Shown here in pieces: positions 36,793-60,743 of a DNA stretch of 64,000 nucleotides (positions are counted from its first letter, which is position 1; each line of letters opens with the position of its first letter). The notes beneath the pieces are model-generated. The model was not told the origin of the DNA. It saw only the letters and a list, made by a program, of their open reading frames with translations, and searched no databases. The position numbers were made by a program, and so were the translations under genes. The DNA comes from Methanocorpusculum parvum (GTDB taxonomy: Archaea; Halobacteriota; Methanomicrobia; Methanomicrobiales; Methanocorpusculaceae): positions 124,001 through 188,000 of the forward strand of contig SUTD01000001.1 of the NCBI GenBank assembly GCA_015063085.1. The letters run 5' to 3'.

Positions 36793-36837
36793 AAGGCATG
36801 CAGAAAGACGGGCAAAAGAGGGTAAGTATTTGAGACA

Positions 36838-36860
36838 TGCATCCGTTTTTCGCGGATGCA
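36838..36860. terminator. Hairpin between convergent genes
   Basis: GCATCCG (36839-36845) and CGGATGC (36853-36859) form a 7-bp stem with a T-rich loop, between the stops of the glycosyltransferase (36792) and the binding protein (36876). It could serve both directions; a T-run follows on the plus side at about 36870. Confidence 0.5.
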
Positions 36861-49143: not shown

Positions 49144-49330
49144 CAAAACGAGGTGTCTTAGTGTTCGGGTAACCAATCCGAACAACACCACGCTTTGTAA
49201 TTCTCACTAAAAGAATAATCTAAGAATACAGCGTTAGCTGATGTATATAGATACAACCTTAAAGAATAAAAAATCTTGCAGAACTGTAAAACAAAAAGAT
49301 TAACTGAGAAAAACGGCAGGGTAATTTAGA
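49144..49330. repeat. 187-bp direct repeat, copy 1, with a conserved hairpin
   Basis: Nearly identical to 50065-50252. It begins CAAAACG-A/C-GGTGTC and ends near GTAATTTAG. It contains a two-tier stem: GGTGT (49152-49156) with ACACC (49185-49189), and TGTTCGG (49162-49168) with CCGAACA (49178-49184). On the minus strand a TATA-like TCTATATACAT lies at about 49242-49251, so a small RNA running down through the hairpin is possible. The direct repeats bracket the diverged peptide/RNA locus at 49.4-49.7 kb. Confidence 0.85.
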
Positions 49331-49439
49331 CATCAATCCAGAAACAAAACCCGCATCAACATATGGATTTATATCCAGAGAAAGTGAATCATAAGATGCC
49401 GGCCTCACCAGCCGAGTAAGATAAAAAGGAGGTGATAAT

Positions 49440-49529
49440 ATCACCCAGTTTATCATAGCAGCATTCACAGTTGCTGTTCTCATATCCAGAGAACTCAGGT
49501 TATGGTATCAGCTACTGATGAGAAAATAG
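49440..49529 (+). pseudogene. Hydrophobic-peptide gene with ATC in place of its start codon
   Basis: Thirty codons to the TAG at 49527-49529. Aligned without gaps to the peptides at 59129 and 60085, the ATC at 49440 falls exactly on their initiator Met, and SRELRLW matches their SREIREW/SREIRGW at residues 16-22. A very strong Shine-Dalgarno (AGGAGGTGAT, 49428-49436) lies just upstream but is half buried in the palindrome GGTGAT-AAT-ATCACC. Either an ATG mutated to ATC, or a non-standard start is used. An upstream hairpin CGGC-CTCACCA-GCCG (49400-49414) lies in the leader. Confidence 0.6.
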
Positions 49530-49610
49530 TGGGAGGTCAAACCCCCATTATTTTATACTCCTTCACCCGAGGGAAATTCCTATATACTTACACAACATAA
49601 GTATAACTTG

Positions 49611-49690
49611 CAAGATAAACTGGGTGGTATCCGGTTGAACAGGATGGTTACCTGTTCGAAGAAACCGGTTTCACCTTCTTGTTTCTTTTC
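49611..49690 (+). ncRNA. Putative antisense RNA of the 49.4-kb peptide locus
   Basis: A TATA box (TATATACT, 49581-49588) predicts a start near 49611. The first bases include GATAAACTGGGTG (49614-49626), perfectly complementary to CACCCAGTTTATC (49442-49454), the first codons of the peptide frame upstream. A two-tier hairpin follows: CCGGTT/AACCGG (49631-49636 with 49663-49668) enclosing GAACAGG/CCTGTTC with loop ATGGTTA. A T-rich end (49677-49689) could terminate it. Same layout as the RNAs at 59.3, 60.3 and 60.6 kb, in shortened form. Confidence 0.55.
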
Positions 49691-50064: not shown

Positions 50065-50252
50065 CAAAACGCGGTGTCTTAGTGTTCGGGTAACCAATCC
50101 GAACAACACCACGCTTTGTAATTCTCACTAAAAGAATAATCTAAGAATACAGCGTAAGCTGATGTATATAGATACAACCTTAAAGAATAAAAAAATCTTG
50201 CAGAATTGTAAAACAAAAAGATTAACTGAGAAAAACGGCAGGATAATTTAGG
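50065..50252. repeat. 188-bp direct repeat, copy 2
   Basis: Second copy of the repeat at 49144-49330, differing at a handful of bases and one extra A in an A-run. The two-tier hairpin (50073-50110) is unchanged. The unit ends 43 bases before the stop of the transglutaminase-like gene, so it also marks the 3' end of that transcript. Confidence 0.85.
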
Positions 50253-50295
50253 CATGCATCCGGCAGTCAAACCCTGCGGATGCATAGCCGGCAAT

Positions 50296-56663: not shown

Positions 56664-56739
56664 GCAACTGAGAAGTCCGTACTCCAGCTTTTTTGTTGCC
56701 GCAAAGCTGAGGCATACAACCCTTGGCTTTGGGTTGTAT
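56664..56739 (+). promoter_or_regulatory. Structured leader of the three-pilin operon
   Basis: GCAAC (56664-56668), nine bases, CGTACTCC (56678-56685), nine bases, GTTGC (56695-56699): the same motif and spacing as in the leader at 48.77-48.80 kb. A second hairpin ATACAACCC/GGGTTGTAT (56714-56739) precedes the Shine-Dalgarno TTAGGAGAT (56741-56749). Upstream, 56325-56663 is A/T rich with a 13-base T-run (about 56638-56650) bounded by direct repeats of TAGATAGATTTA; no gene is seen there. Confidence 0.6.
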
Positions 56740-56755
56740 GTTTAGGAGATTCTTC

Positions 56756-57208
56756 ATGAATGCTGATATTATGTTAAAGAAGAAAGAAGATGCAGTCTCG
56801 CCGGTCATTGGTGTCATGCTGATGCTGGTTGTCACAATCGTTATCGCGGCTGTCGTTGCAGCTTTTGCCGGAGGAATCGCCACAGATACCGAGCCGACGC
56901 CGTCTGTGGTGCTGAGTGCTGATGTTTATGCAACTGGTCCAAAAGTTACTCTTCAGTCGCTTTCCGGTGACAGATTAGAAGTCTCGAAGCTTGATGTGAA
57001 AGTGTACAGCGAAGACGGAGCACTGATTGCCAAAGAGAACGCCATCACTGGAAATGACGGAAACTACTTCAATCCAGGAACGATTCTTACCGTGACACTG
57101 ACTGTTCAGGATGGTAAGGAGATTAAAGCAGGAGACAACGTTCAGATTGTTGTCACTTCAAACGAGAAACACACCGTCTTCAACAAAGAAGTAATCGTCA
57201 AGGCATAA
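56756..57208 (+). CDS. Archaeal type IV pilin
   Basis: A 150-aa pilin from the ATG at 56756, which follows an AGGAGA Shine-Dalgarno by about 8 bases: MNADIMLKKKEDAVSPVIGV then MLMLVVTIVIAAVVAAFAGG. The mature part has VTLQSLSGDRLEVSKLDVKVYSEDG, the SGD feature of the family. First of three pilins on the plus strand. An in-frame ATG 11 codons upstream is less likely. Confidence 0.88.
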   Translation: MNADIMLKKKEDAVSPVIGVMLMLVVTIVIAAVVAAFAGGIATDTEPTPSVVLSADVYATGPKVTLQSLSGDRLEVSKLDVKVYSEDGALIAKENAITGNDGNYFNPGTILTVTLTVQDGKEIKAGDNVQIVVTSNEKHTVFNKEVIVKA

Positions 57209-57227
57209 AGCTGAGGGATTCTAAGAA

Positions 57228-58193
57228 ATGATTCAGAAAAAATCTGATGACGCCGTCTCCCCGGTTATAGGCATCATGCTTCTGGTGGTGGTTACTGTAG
57301 TTATCGCTGCAGTAATTACCGCATTTGCTACCGGCATGGTTGGAAGTACCGAGCCTGTACCCGTTGCGGCGTTGGATGTGGAAATTTACTCCAACCAGGA
57401 AAACATGTATGGTTTGTCCGGACCTGAGTTATTTATCTCTCATATTTCCGGGGATGCAGTTGATACTGATGATATTGAACTTCGCTTCTCATGGACGCAC
57501 AAAACTCGTGAAGGAGAAGAATGTTCACATTCCAGTACTTTCACCGCAGAAGGGTTTAAGAACTCTGGAACAAGTCTTGAGAATAGAAACCAACCACTGT
57601 ATGTGAAATCCACGATGTTAGTAGACCCTGAGAGAGATGAATATGGCTCAAATGGTATTAATCACTACTTCGGCGATGTCATCTTAACCCCTGGATTGAG
57701 ACTCTCGGCATCATCTGAGTTCCTTAACTTAAACGTAGAACGTCACACCCAAAGTCGTTTCATGGATGTGGTTTTTGACAATTACAAAATAACTACCAAA
57801 GTAACAAAGGCATATGGATATAGAGCAGAGAGTTGGTGGGAGAATCAAGTAAATAACGTTCAGGTAATGGCTCATGCCTCATCTGAAACATTACAGGAAC
57901 AGTTCCCCGGTGATGCCTGCTTTACCGGACAGGGGACATGTATGTACAAGATATATTATGACTATGTTGCTCAGGGATACTGTGGAATATGTAAGCATCC
58001 CATTAGTCTTTGTAATGAAGAAAATGACCCATATCATGAATGTAAATGTGTTACAGAAGACCCATGGGATGGCGTACCTGTATATACAGGGGGAATTATG
58101 TCCCATCTGACACCGGGAACTGCTGTTGATGTGATGATTATCCACATTCCAAGCAACAAAGCAATCTACGATAAGACGGTGATTGTACAATGA
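57228..58193 (+). CDS. Large archaeal pilin with a cysteine-rich C-terminal insert
   Basis: A 321-aa protein with the usual leader MIQKKSDDAVSPVIGIMLLVVVTVVIAAVITAF and pilin block FISHISGDAVDTDDIELRF. Unlike its neighbours it continues with about 90 residues containing CFTGQGTC, YCGICKHPISLC and YHECKC, eight cysteines and two histidines that look like a zinc-binding or disulfide-bonded knob, before rejoining the pilin-like end TAVDVMIIHIPSNKAIYDKTVIVQ. Probably a minor or tip pilin. Overlaps the next gene by 4 bases. Confidence 0.82.
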   Translation: MIQKKSDDAVSPVIGIMLLVVVTVVIAAVITAFATGMVGSTEPVPVAALDVEIYSNQENMYGLSGPELFISHISGDAVDTDDIELRFSWTHKTREGEECSHSSTFTAEGFKNSGTSLENRNQPLYVKSTMLVDPERDEYGSNGINHYFGDVILTPGLRLSASSEFLNLNVERHTQSRFMDVVFDNYKITTKVTKAYGYRAESWWENQVNNVQVMAHASSETLQEQFPGDACFTGQGTCMYKIYYDYVAQGYCGICKHPISLCNEENDPYHECKCVTEDPWDGVPVYTGGIMSHLTPGTAVDVMIIHIPSNKAIYDKTVIVQ

Positions 58194-58711
58194 AGCAGCA
58201 TAAAAGAAAAGAAGATGCAGTATCACCTGTGATTGGTGTCATGCTGATGCTTGTTGTAACTCTTGTAATCGCTGCAGTCGTAACCGCGTTTGCGACAGGA
58301 ATGGCAGGAGATTCAACCGCTACCACCCCTATGGCTTTGTTTGAAGCCGGAAATCAGCAAGTTGTTTCAGGTTCTGTAGGAGATAGACAGACATATCTCT
58401 TACAGACTTTTGACCTTGTACACAAAGGCGGAGATGAAATAGAACTGGAAAATATCAAGGTAGTTATTGACCCCAAGGGAGGAATGGCATCATACGGAAT
58501 TATGGTGGTAAAGACAAAATCTGACCTAACTGTCCCCGGAAAAACCGGTGATGACGTAGTACTTTCAACGGGCGACAGAATCAGGATTAAACTCAATACT
58601 GGTTCTGACCATGAAAAGAGTGAAACTGGATCTCTCGTTAAGTGGACTCTCTCTGACACCAGAACAAACGGTGTCATCGCCAAGGGTGAGTTTGTCGTCC
58701 CGAAGGCATAA
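58190..58711 (+). CDS. Archaeal type IV pilin
   Basis: A 173-aa pilin: MKQHKRKEDAVSPVIGVMLM, hydrophobic helix to about residue 38, then TFDLVHKGGDEIELENIKVVID, the HxGGDxI box. Third and last of the plus-strand pilin operon. It ends FVVPKA followed by TAA and a terminator-like hairpin. Confidence 0.88.
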   Translation: MKQHKRKEDAVSPVIGVMLMLVVTLVIAAVVTAFATGMAGDSTATTPMALFEAGNQQVVSGSVGDRQTYLLQTFDLVHKGGDEIELENIKVVIDPKGGMASYGIMVVKTKSDLTVPGKTGDDVVLSTGDRIRIKLNTGSDHEKSETGSLVKWTLSDTRTNGVIAKGEFVVPKA

Positions 58712-59015: not shown

Positions 59016-59128
59016 TTTAGAAAAAGGATTTGGGATTTTGTATGATTAATTCGGTTTTGTGTTATGCTCAAATAGATTCACGTTCAATATAGATACTGGT
59101 CAGTCCGCAAAACTGGCCATTGTAGAAA

Positions 59129-59287
59129 ATGATTGAAAATATCTGTATCATAATAACAGCTTTCGCAGCTGTATCCCGTGAGATACGGGAGTGGATAAAA
59201 CTAAGAACACGAGAAAAGGAGGATGAATCTCATCCTCCTTTTCTCACTCTTCAGTTTTCCCCCTATGGGACAACAATTTATACTTGA
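59129..59287 (+). CDS. 52-aa hydrophobic-peptide gene, candidate type I toxin (copy 1)
   Basis: Peptide MIENICIIITAFAAVSREIR followed by EWIKLRTREKEDE: a short hydrophobic segment (residues 5-15) and a charged tail, the layout of type I toxin peptides. It shares about 70% of its first 40 residues with the 60085 peptide; the C-terminal ends differ in frame. A TATA box (CAATATAGATA, about 59085-59095) predicts a start near 59117, so the leader would be just the 12 bases before the ATG. That leader plus ATG (59117-59131) is perfectly complementary to the RNA encoded downstream. The coding region itself contains a 16-bp perfect hairpin (GAGAAAAGGAGGATGA and its complement). Confidence 0.6.
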   Translation: MIENICIIITAFAAVSREIREWIKLRTREKEDESHPPFLTLQFSPYGTTIYT

Positions 59288-59305
59288 TGTGACAATATAT
59301 TATTC

Positions 59306-59434
59306 AGAGTTAAACTGCCTCAGCAGCACTCTATGTTCTTAGTGTCGTTTCGGCATTTTCTACAATGGACATGCACCTGCGGAGTTTGCAACCGCTTTAC
59401 AGGGGTGCATGTCTAAATTATCTAAACTGTTTTC
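59306..59434 (+). ncRNA. Structured small RNA, candidate antitoxin of the 59129 peptide
   Basis: Promoter TTTATACT (59278-59285), overlapping the peptide stop, predicts a start at 59306-59308. Hairpin 1: AGAGT/ACTCT with CTGC/GCAG (59306-59332). Hairpin 2: TGTC/GGCA (59343-59355). Single-stranded linker holding CATTTTCTACAATGG (59354-59368), the 15-base perfect complement of the peptide leader and ATG. Hairpin 3: GACATGCACC/GGTGCATGTC with inner GCGG-AGTTTGCAA-CCGC (59368-59413). A T-run at 59430-59433 ends it. All three hairpins recur in the RNAs at 60.26 and 60.56 kb. Confidence 0.7.
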
Positions 59435-59473
59435 TCCATCTTTCTGTACGCTGTCGATGCCTTGGCTCGAAGA

Positions 59474-59605
59474 AAAGACAAAGCAGTCTCAGAAACATAA
59501 ACCAAATACGCCCAAAGAATCCTGCCGCCGGACATGACATAGAGCCGAAGAAAGAAAGGGCGGATAGAAAATATACGGACAAAGCAGGCAGGGCACGCGT
59601 TTGCC
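59474..59605. repeat. About 130-bp repeat, copy 1 (AAAGCAGTCTC type)
   Basis: Matches 59851-59983; the first 60 bases (GCAGTCTCAGAAACATAAAC through CCTGCCGCCGGACAT) are near-identical, the rest diverges with a common end GGCAGGGCACGCGTTTGCC. It runs into the second 112-bp repeat. The minus strand reads MSGGRILWAYLVYVSETA in both copies, but I see no gene around it. Confidence 0.7.
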
Positions 59606-59711
59606 TGCGGATAGATGCGGGCGACTTTTTTTAGGATATTTACACACAAGGAGGCAGGATAACTCCACCGCGGGCGGCTCCGCGTCGGAGTCGCCGCCCC
59701 GCACCCCGGAT
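59600..59711. repeat. 112-bp repeat, copy 2 (structured)
   Basis: Second copy of 58904-59015. Its hairpin reads GGGCGG-CTCCG-CGT-CGGAG-TCG-CCGCCC (59672-59699). Against copy 1, both changed pairs in the outer stem (A-T to G-C and C-G to G-C) are changed on both sides, so pairing is kept. Between here and 59850 I see only short palindromes and no gene. Confidence 0.75.
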
Positions 59712-59850
59712 TCAAAGAAAGAGGTTTCGAGAATTCATAGGAAGCAAGCAAAGCAACGCCAAAGCGGCTGCGGCAGCAGGTCGCCGAAGGCGACAGCGAC
59801 GCGTTGCGCGACCGAAGGGAGCGTCTGTGTAGTCTGCGTTCATTCCAAAT

Positions 59851-59983
59851 AAAGACAAAAGCAGTCTCAGAAACATAAACCAAATACGCCCAAAGAATCC
59901 TGCCGCCGGACATCACGAAGAGCCGAAGCGGGAAGGGACAGATAGACGAAATGGGGACAAGGAAGGCAGGGCACGCGTTTGCC
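59851..59983. repeat. About 130-bp repeat, copy 2 (AAAGCAGTCTC type)
   Basis: Second copy of 59474-59605; it ends in GGCAGGGCACGCGTTTGCC and is followed after 30 bases by the second complete peptide/RNA unit. The pairing of this repeat and the 112-bp repeat with the units suggests that larger blocks were duplicated and then eroded. Confidence 0.65.
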
Positions 59984-60084
59984 GCAACGCTTTTTTTACT
60001 ATTTTTGGACTGGTGTTATGCTCAAATAGATTCACGTTCAATATAGATATGGTCAGTCCGCAAAACTGGCTAGTAGTATTAAAA

Positions 60085-60246
60085 ATGATTGAGACAATCT
60101 GTCTAATCATAACAGCATTTTCCGCTGTTTCCCGCGAAATTCGCGGATGGATTGAAGTGAGAACAAGAGAAAAGGATGATGAAAAACATCCTCCTTTTCT
60201 CACTCTTCTTTCCCGTTGGGACAACATTTTATACTTGACAAGATAA
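60085..60246 (+). CDS. 53-aa hydrophobic-peptide gene, candidate type I toxin (copy 2)
   Basis: Peptide MIETICLIITAFSAVSREIR then GWIEVRTREKDDE, paralogue of the 59129 product. The upstream region is conserved from TGTTATGCTC (60014) through a TATA box (CAATATAGATA, about 60039-60049), which predicts a start near 60072. The 13-base leader differs from copy 1: AGTAGTATTAA (60072-60082) replaces CCATTGTAGAAA, and it is perfectly complementary to the linker of the RNA just downstream (60307-60317), not to that of copy 1. A palindrome TGGTCAGT-CCGCAAA-ACTGGCTA (60050-60072) lies between TATA and start. Confidence 0.6.
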   Translation: MIETICLIITAFSAVSREIRGWIEVRTREKDDEKHPPFLTLLSRWDNILYLTR

Positions 60247-60256
60247 TATATTACTT

Positions 60257-60387
60257 AGAGTTTAACTGCCGCCGCAGTCGCTCTACGTTCTCAATGCTAT
60301 CCAGCATTAATACTACTTGACATGCATCTGCGGACTTTGCAACCGCTTTACAGAGGTGCATGTCTAAACCTTATTCAAACTGTTTTC
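60257..60387 (+). ncRNA. Structured small RNA, candidate antitoxin of the 60085 peptide
   Basis: Promoter TTTATACT (60228-60235) predicts a start at about 60258. Hairpin 1: AGAG/CTCT with CTGC/GCAG (60257-60284). Hairpin 2: ATGC/GCAT (60294-60307). Linker with TTAATACTACT (60307-60317), complementary to the leader of the peptide gene at 60072-60082. Hairpin 3: GACATGCATC/GGTGCATGTC with inner GCGG-ACTTTGCAA-CCGC (60319-60364), one pair becoming G-U. T-run at 60382-60386. Confidence 0.7.
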
Positions 60388-60560
60388 TCAAAATTCAATC
60401 CATGAATTTGAAAAAGATATTTGTTCCTGCTAAGGCTCGAAGAGCCGCATGCAGGTAAGGGTCGCAAGCCAAAGGCTTGCTCATGACTCGAGCAAGCTCT
60501 CGTCCGTCGCGGGAATACGGGCGAGTAACATATTATACTTGATAAGACAATATATTATTC

Positions 60561-60743
60561 AGAGTTTAACTGCATCGCAAGTCTCTTCGAGCCTTGCTCA
60601 AAGCTCGAGCCTTCGACTCTCGCCCGCCGCAGTCACTCTATTCTGAGTGCCGTCTCTGGCATATTCCACAAACAGACATACACCTGCGGAGTTTGCAACC
60701 GCTTTAAATAGGGTGTATGTCTAAAATCATTCAAACTGTTTTG
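60561..60743 (+). ncRNA. Structured small RNA, orphan third copy
   Basis: Same promoter (ATTATACTTGATAAGACAAT, from 60533) and the same three hairpins: hairpin 1 with a 55-base expansion of its loop (60561-60639), hairpin 2 TGCC/GGCA (60648-60661), hairpin 3 GACATACACC/GGTGTATGTC (60675-60684 with 60712-60721). Relative to the other copies the sixth pair of hairpin 3 changed from G-C to A-U on both sides. The linker ATATTCCACAAACA has no complementary peptide leader nearby. 60391-60520 holds short palindromes only. Confidence 0.65.

Follow-up and report, generated by a model that had tools for sequence, protein, structure and literature searches.

A candidate type I-like toxin-antitoxin superfamily in gut Methanocorpusculum, with RNAs that match their own peptide mRNAs at two contacts

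Introduction

What is the function of an archaeal locus in which short genes for a hydrophobic peptide stand in tandem, each followed on the same strand by a separate structured RNA? The question is raised by a stretch of 64,000 nucleotides from Methanocorpusculum parvum (contig SUTD01000001.1; hereafter the window), whose plus strand carries, at 59.05-60.75 kb, a tandem array of two complete units and one RNA-only copy. The original prediction proposed that each RNA is complementary to the leader of its own peptide gene, and likened the units to the Escherichia coli toxin-antitoxin pairs tisB/istR, shoB/ohsC and zorO/orzO, an analogy that holds at the level of architecture. Our best reading is that each unit is, with good probability, a type I-like toxin-antitoxin module of gut Methanocorpusculum, presumably transcribed and presumably toxic when unrestrained. 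As in type I systems, a small hydrophobic peptide under coding selection is found together with an RNA complementary to its mRNA, the two co-varying in 44 units.

Results

Units 1 and 2 of the window belong to a family, here called A, with a fixed order of parts: a TATA-like element, an mRNA 5' hairpin (TGGTCAGT..ACTGGCCA), a leader of 12-16 nt and variable sequence, the ATG, the ORF, a terminator-like hairpin, a TATA-like box, and an RNA of 113 nt made up of hairpin 1, hairpin 2, a single-stranded linker and hairpin 3. In unit 1 (plus strand, like all features below unless stated), the mRNA 5' hairpin lies at 59097-59119, the leader and ATG that form the predicted antisense target at 59117-59131 (CCATTGTAGAAAATG), the 52-aa peptide ORF at 59129-59287 (conserved 39-aa core, 59129-59245), the terminator-like hairpin within the ORF at 59211-59245 (GAGAAAAGGAGGATGA..TCATCCTCCTTTTCTC, conserved in 15 units), the putative promoter of the RNA at 59277-59286 (TATA-like box TTTATACTTG) and the three-hairpin antisense RNA at 59305-59417 (covariance-model match, E = 3.9e-32). 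The counterparts in unit 2 are found at 60050-60070 (5' hairpin), 60072-60087 (leader and ATG, the predicted target), 60085-60246 (ORF, 53 aa; core 60085-60201), 60167-60201 (terminator-like hairpin within the ORF), 60227-60236 (TATA-like box of the putative RNA promoter) and 60256-60368 (antisense RNA, E = 3.1e-29). The box stands about 27 nt upstream of the first hairpin of each RNA, and its likely role as promoter is read from alignment and sequence. Both units had been placed correctly, coordinates and complementarities being exact, and the predicted three-hairpin fold was recovered for both RNAs (z-scores -3.7 and -4.5).

In unit 1 the RNA linker (59354-59368, CATTTTCTACAATGG) is an exact 15-nt complement of the leader and ATG, a length that none of 20,000 dinucleotide-shuffled versions of the RNA attained. 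The linker of unit 2 (TTAATACTACT, 60307-60317) exactly matches 11 nt of its leader (AGTAGTATTAA, 60072-60082), and 12 of 20,000 shuffles gave 11 nt or more. Each RNA fits its own mRNA only, as had been claimed: cross pairings are worth -3.8 and -4.4 kcal/mol, against -16.0 and -11.6 kcal/mol for the cognate ones. The predicted complex of unit 1 reaches -61.4 kcal/mol, compared with -50.0 for the separate RNAs.

Of 25 Methanocorpusculum genomes searched by blastn, 5 contain complete family A units, 15 in all. The genomes compared are mostly metagenome-assembled (MAGs), those of the named relatives coming from the ruminant hindgut (dairy cattle colon, goat cecum and colon, water deer colon), and transcript starts and ends are placed by conserved sequence. 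Co-variation of leader and linker, the check put forward with the original prediction, was positive in all 15 units: the linker opens with an invariant CAT and continues as the complement of its own leader. Cognate duplexes average -13.7 kcal/mol and non-cognate ones -3.2 kcal/mol, with none of 100,000 permutations doing as well, and the only leaders to prefer a foreign RNA are those with a sister copy. A compensated substitution separates G000:C10 (leader CTGCTG.., linker CAGCAG) from G007:C17 (leader CTACTG.., linker CAGTAG). These permutation tests count paralogues as independent; tests on distinct combinations and within genomes agree with them in direction. Co-variation measured with RNAduplex on long segments was blurred by the shared hairpins and was replaced by narrow segments and an ungapped helix score. 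Between RNA hairpin 2 and codons 2-5 no co-variation was detectable.

In peptide profile searches, family A belongs with families B and C to a superfamily whose members are small peptides of one helix bearing the motif S-R-E-I-R-x-W. With a profile derived from family A (A2), more diverged peptides came to light both in the family A genomes and in G004 and G009; a family C profile added G006 and G010. In all, the superfamily occupies 9-10 genomes of the single genus Methanocorpusculum, where one genome may hold as many as about 15 complete copies, and is absent from most of the genus, complete genomes included. Family B (G007:C15:529-639; G004:C33) has its parts in the order of family A and a different RNA; one member shows a 20-nt pairing with one mismatch (GGAATCAAAACTATGTTCAA / TTGAACATAGTCTTGATTCC). 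Family C is abundant, with 27 testable units, and is laid out as a perfect Shine-Dalgarno sequence (GGAGGTGAT) and a peptide of 28-30 aa ending in ..SREIRxWYQLLKKK. Past the stop come a terminator-like hairpin, another TATA-like box and finally the RNA, about 80 nt long. One such unit, overlooked in the original prediction, lies at 49.4 kb of the window (49367-49678). Its leader spans 49367-49442 (TATA-like element 49367-49376, 5' hairpin 49398-49416, Shine-Dalgarno 49428-49436, start ATC 49440-49442), its 29-aa peptide, identified by profile and alignment, 49440-49529 (ITQFIIAAFTVAVLISRELRLWYQLLMRK), and its antisense RNA 49580-49678 (TATA-like box 49580-49589, 5' arm 49613-49630, hairpin 49631-49669, 3' arm TTCACCTTC 49670-49678). 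The 5' arm complements the start and codons 1-5, and the 3' arm the Shine-Dalgarno sequence. Direct repeats at 49152-49352 and 50073-50274 (122 nt at 99% plus 85 nt at 88% identity, 921 bp apart) enclose this unit and are possibly the footprint of a duplication or insertion.

Throughout family C the 5' arm complements its own start codon and codons 1-6 (-24.8 kcal/mol for cognate and -8.3 for foreign pairs; 0/100,000 permutations; 17 units tested), and the 3' arm (TCACCTCC-like) complements the Shine-Dalgarno sequence, here with slight co-variation (11/20,000 permutations). Co-folding puts both arms on one contiguous stretch of mRNA, with the RNA hairpin projecting between them, at -52 to -55 kcal/mol; the hairpin itself has double changes at 8 of its 11 pairs. 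When the 44 units of the three families are taken together, the helix score averages 35.1 with the own partner and 16.7 with foreign ones (0/50,000), cognate helices measure 8-27 nt, and 38 of the 44 RNAs score best with their cognate mRNA, which extends to the superfamily the claim that each RNA suits its own mRNA. Among the 15 units of genome G007, the own partner is best for all 15 mRNAs and for 13 of the RNAs.

A second contact, likewise overlooked before, involves two loops, that of the 5' hairpin in the mRNA and the apical one in the RNA. The 5' hairpin is conserved because its loop complements the RNA loop and changes together with it. In the window, GCAAA at 59107-59111 faces TTTGC at 59385-59389 in unit 1, and the same letters face each other in unit 2 (60060-60064 with 60336-60340). 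Fourteen of the 15 family A units have five Watson-Crick pairs, G000:C10 being the one that breaks the match, and four variants occur: GCAAA/TTTGC, CACAA/TTGTG, CACGA/TCGTG and GCGAA/TTCGC. De-duplication leaves only seven distinct combinations and a weaker result in this family (669/100,000). Family C offers 17 distinct combinations, with a mean run of 5.8 against 3.4 (0/100,000), the loop segments having been picked by hand ahead of the permutation test. Its pairs include TAACTA/TAGTTA, TAACAA/TTGTTA, TAACCA/TGGTTA and TTACCA/TGGTAA, as well as TAACGAA/TTCGTTA, GACCAA/TTGGTC and TAATGAC/GTCATTA; the run is only 4 in four units, that of the window included. Both family B units show, by inspection, 7-8 bp (CGACCAAA/TTTGGTCG; GACCAAA/TTTGGTC).

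The peptide frame is under selection, as the original prediction required. In family A, pN/pS is 0.32 in the peptide frame and 1.1-2.3 in the others; in family C it is 0.46, and the remaining frames of both families give 0.8-2.3. From the motif onward, family C has a pN of 0.157 against a pS of 0.735, and its motif arginines switch between CGN and AGR codons (CGT, CGG, CGA, AGA, AGG). Only one indel, of a single codon (3 nt), occurs within the family A core. That core, the first 39 codons, comprises a hydrophobic helix, SREIRxW and REKDDESHPPFL, with the terminator-like hairpin at codons 28-39. Peptides are as a rule 29-54 aa long, and their N-terminal 15-aa stretch has a mean hydropathy of 2.1-2.5 (TisB, 2.6); family A is near-neutral, families B and C are cationic.

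The ends of the frame are less uniform. Among family A homologues the C-terminal tails and stop positions vary, and no stop precedes the terminator-like hairpin in family A and B ORFs; in about 10 of the 15 family A units the stop is a TGA within the TATA box of the RNA (TTATACTTGA), and in the others the frame continues. An mRNA that ended at the hairpin would be stop-less. With no conserved end to the ORF, and with the frame crossing the hairpin, the 3' end of the family A product is placed only provisionally. In family C the irregularity is at the start: the position 12-13 nt after the first base of GGAGGTG holds ATA, ATC, ATT or, once, ACG, except that the G006 unit has ATG and three near-identical copies have ATG one codon earlier. 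Four aligned units, including that of the window, have no in-frame ATG, GTG or TTG between the start position and the motif. Most family C peptides, if made, would begin at a non-AUG codon.

RNA copies without a peptide make up 6 of the 21 family A loci, and peptides without an RNA 0 of 15. The TATA-like box is retained in three of the six: at G007:C14, at G002:C54 and in the third copy of the window array (60532-60725; box 60532-60541, RNA 60560-60725), which had been overlooked. The linker of the latter (CATATTCCACAAACAG, 60660-60675) is identical to that of a complete unit, G007:C12; no target was found in its own genome, which is about 80% complete. A repeat of about 52 nt is inserted into its hairpin 1; this GC-rich sequence (CTCTTCGAGCC..) also interrupts hairpin 1 of a second peptide-less RNA, L057, and members of the same repeat family are seen around 60432-60516 and elsewhere. 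Families A and C are neighbours at G002:C54, where a peptide-less family A RNA (L054) with its own TATA-like box comes immediately after a family C unit (L146). In family C, two peptides lack an RNA (L149 and L207); both sites are repeat-disrupted, and the L207 peptide has lost the otherwise invariant Trp.

At an hpt-flanking site, with two units in G007, no family A unit was present at the flanks compared in 15 relatives; as 4 of these relatives carry units elsewhere, units evidently come and go. Two dispersed repeat families of 126-128 nt flank the window units (58904-59031/59600-59727, 91%; 59480-59605/59858-59983, 87%), and several units lie at the ends of contigs, as repeats, which break assemblies, would lead one to expect. 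Upstream, at 56723-58711, are three consecutive ORFs resembling archaeal type IV pilins; the two that were checked both match Pilin_N. Outside the genus, matches to the family C profile among 393 genomes of the phylum were weak and were rejected, as were five low-scoring candidates (L154, L155, L156, L158 and L159), which turned out to belong to other frames or to unrelated genes. Viral contigs gave no match to either peptide profile, nor plasmids to the family C peptide. A contig labelled as a Bacteroidaceae MAG from yak cecum (L203, JAGBSZ010000013.1) contains a family C unit that hardly differs from G007:C5 and is probably mis-binned Methanocorpusculum.

Discussion

Taking the architecture, the coding selection and the co-variation of both cognate complementarities as established by sequence comparison, we infer transcription, repression and toxicity along the following lines. 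A short mRNA beginning with the 5' hairpin would encode a one-helix membrane peptide of about 29-50 aa with SREIRxW and a charged tail, and an RNA of about 80-115 nt would arise from a promoter of its own, immediately downstream in the same orientation. The natural reading of the two contacts is a kissing of the RNA apical loop with the mRNA hairpin loop, followed by zipping of the linker or arms onto the start region, which would block ribosome binding; this order is presumed. The region covered would be the leader and AUG in families A and B, and the start codon, codons 1-6 and the Shine-Dalgarno sequence in family C. With paralogues diverged in their recognition letters, each RNA would silence its own mRNA, and loss or outrunning of the RNA might release a membrane-active peptide.

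Repression is to be expected, as the pairing covers the start codon, the Shine-Dalgarno sequence or both, and is much better supported than toxicity. The latter is likely, being suggested by the small one-helix peptides, the logic of one RNA per gene, the many copies with patchy occurrence and the RNA-only family A loci. One could envision instead that the RNA is a true antisense repressor, holding at a low dose a harmless small membrane protein that might, for instance, belong to a membrane complex or modulate one. The co-variation speaks for an architecture of repression rather than for toxicity, and the strong conservation of SREIRxW would suit a specific partner. The two RNA-less family C copies also speak against toxicity, since a toxic gene running free should not be tolerated, though the disruption of both sites and the lost Trp of L207 soften this point. 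However, up to some 15 copies per genome, mostly orthogonal RNAs, patchy distribution in the genus and peptide-less RNAs form the pattern of addiction or toxin loci, and we regard the non-toxic alternative as unlikely.

It is quite improbable that the RNA is simply the 3' end of the peptide mRNA, with leader and linker folding in cis as do the fbi and tac elements of hok mRNA. Complementarity alone does not distinguish cis from trans pairing, and the two segments are close together on the same strand; but a terminator-like hairpin and a conserved TATA-like box intervene in 15/15 family A units, the box keeps its fixed spacing in the three peptide-less copies that retain it, consistent with a promoter, and the RNA has a terminal hairpin of its own. 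Scarcely any credit can be given to the notion that both transcripts are structured RNAs with an incidental ORF: the mRNA is indeed highly structured, nucleotide-level conservation, with a lower synonymous rate, marks the hairpin inside the family A ORF, and family C mostly lacks AUG, but pN/pS is well below 1 in the peptide frame only, in two families, the motif arginines switch codons synonymously, the single family A core indel spares the frame, and family C combines a perfect Shine-Dalgarno sequence with a nearly constant length of 29 codons.

A type I-like toxin-antitoxin module, then, remains our preferred interpretation. Weighing against it, besides the RNA-less family C copies, are the unconserved ORF ends of family A, the broken loop match of G000:C10, the lack of detectable co-variation at RNA hairpin 2 and the confinement to 9-10 genomes of one genus. 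The closest parallels of such a module are E. coli zorO/orzO, tisB/istR-1 and shoB/ohsC, with their hydrophobic peptides of about 29 aa, adjacent and separately transcribed sRNAs and short pairings in the 5' UTR. The zorO/orzO group also shares tandem paralogues with cognate sRNAs, a structured 5' UTR and antitoxin-only copies; orz-only genomes of E. coli exist, and OrzO requires 15 pairs in an unbroken run or 17 discontinuous ones (PMC11264685), comparable to helix lengths in the archaeal units (8-27 nt). These units differ in having putative archaeal TATA-type promoters and the RNA downstream on the same strand, in covering the start codon itself where the E. coli systems use a distant standby/EAP site, and in adding a loop-loop contact and, in family C, non-AUG starts; no sequence similarity was found. 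In hok/Sok and AapA/IsoA the toxin mRNA is structured, and recognition is thought to begin by loop-loop contact. The folding of AapA mRNA has been described (PMC6733600). These systems resemble ours in the structured mRNA and in the loop-loop contact, here only presumed to come first, but their antitoxins are antisense over the toxin gene, which makes complementarity automatic. The archaeal genes do not overlap, and their complementarity must be kept by selection. CreTA, present in archaea and bacteria, also has an RNA-based antitoxin; there, the CreT RNA toxin is repressed transcriptionally by CreA-guided Cascade (PMC8501985, PMC9458426), whereas the present units have a peptide product, pair with mRNA and imply no Cas component; nor was any repeat-spacer arrangement seen.

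No similarity to described families was found above cut-off in Pfam, NCBIfam, PADLOC, PHROG, PDB or Rfam (gathering threshold). A 2025 study that added a cyanobacterial case placed the previously known type I systems in Proteobacteria, Firmicutes and Tenericutes only (PMC12390103), and we found no archaeal case among the open-access papers searched. What appears new is the combination of an archaeal host, a same-strand downstream RNA, two-arm coverage of start codon and Shine-Dalgarno sequence, a co-evolving loop-loop contact and non-AUG starts. There is a fair case, somewhat less firm than that for the modules themselves, that this is the first archaeal superfamily of type I-like toxin-antitoxin systems, using a two-step handshake that can be re-coded to give at least 15 mostly orthogonal pairs per genome, its largest branch combining AUA, AUC and AUU starts with two-armed coverage of Shine-Dalgarno and start. 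If so, more than 40 archaeal peptide-RNA pairs would bring RNA-silenced toxins into a second domain of life. They would also provide an unusually clear evolutionary record of archaeal sRNA-mRNA specificity, in which each pair has two separate contacts and both have changed their letters repeatedly. The conserved non-AUG start of family C makes the choice of start codon in archaea directly testable.

Hairpins resembling hairpin 3 of the RNA (GCATCCG..CGGATGCATGTCT) also follow unrelated genes of the window, at 36808-36859 and 50227-50291, both on the minus strand, and hairpin 3 may have originated in a generic terminator-like element.
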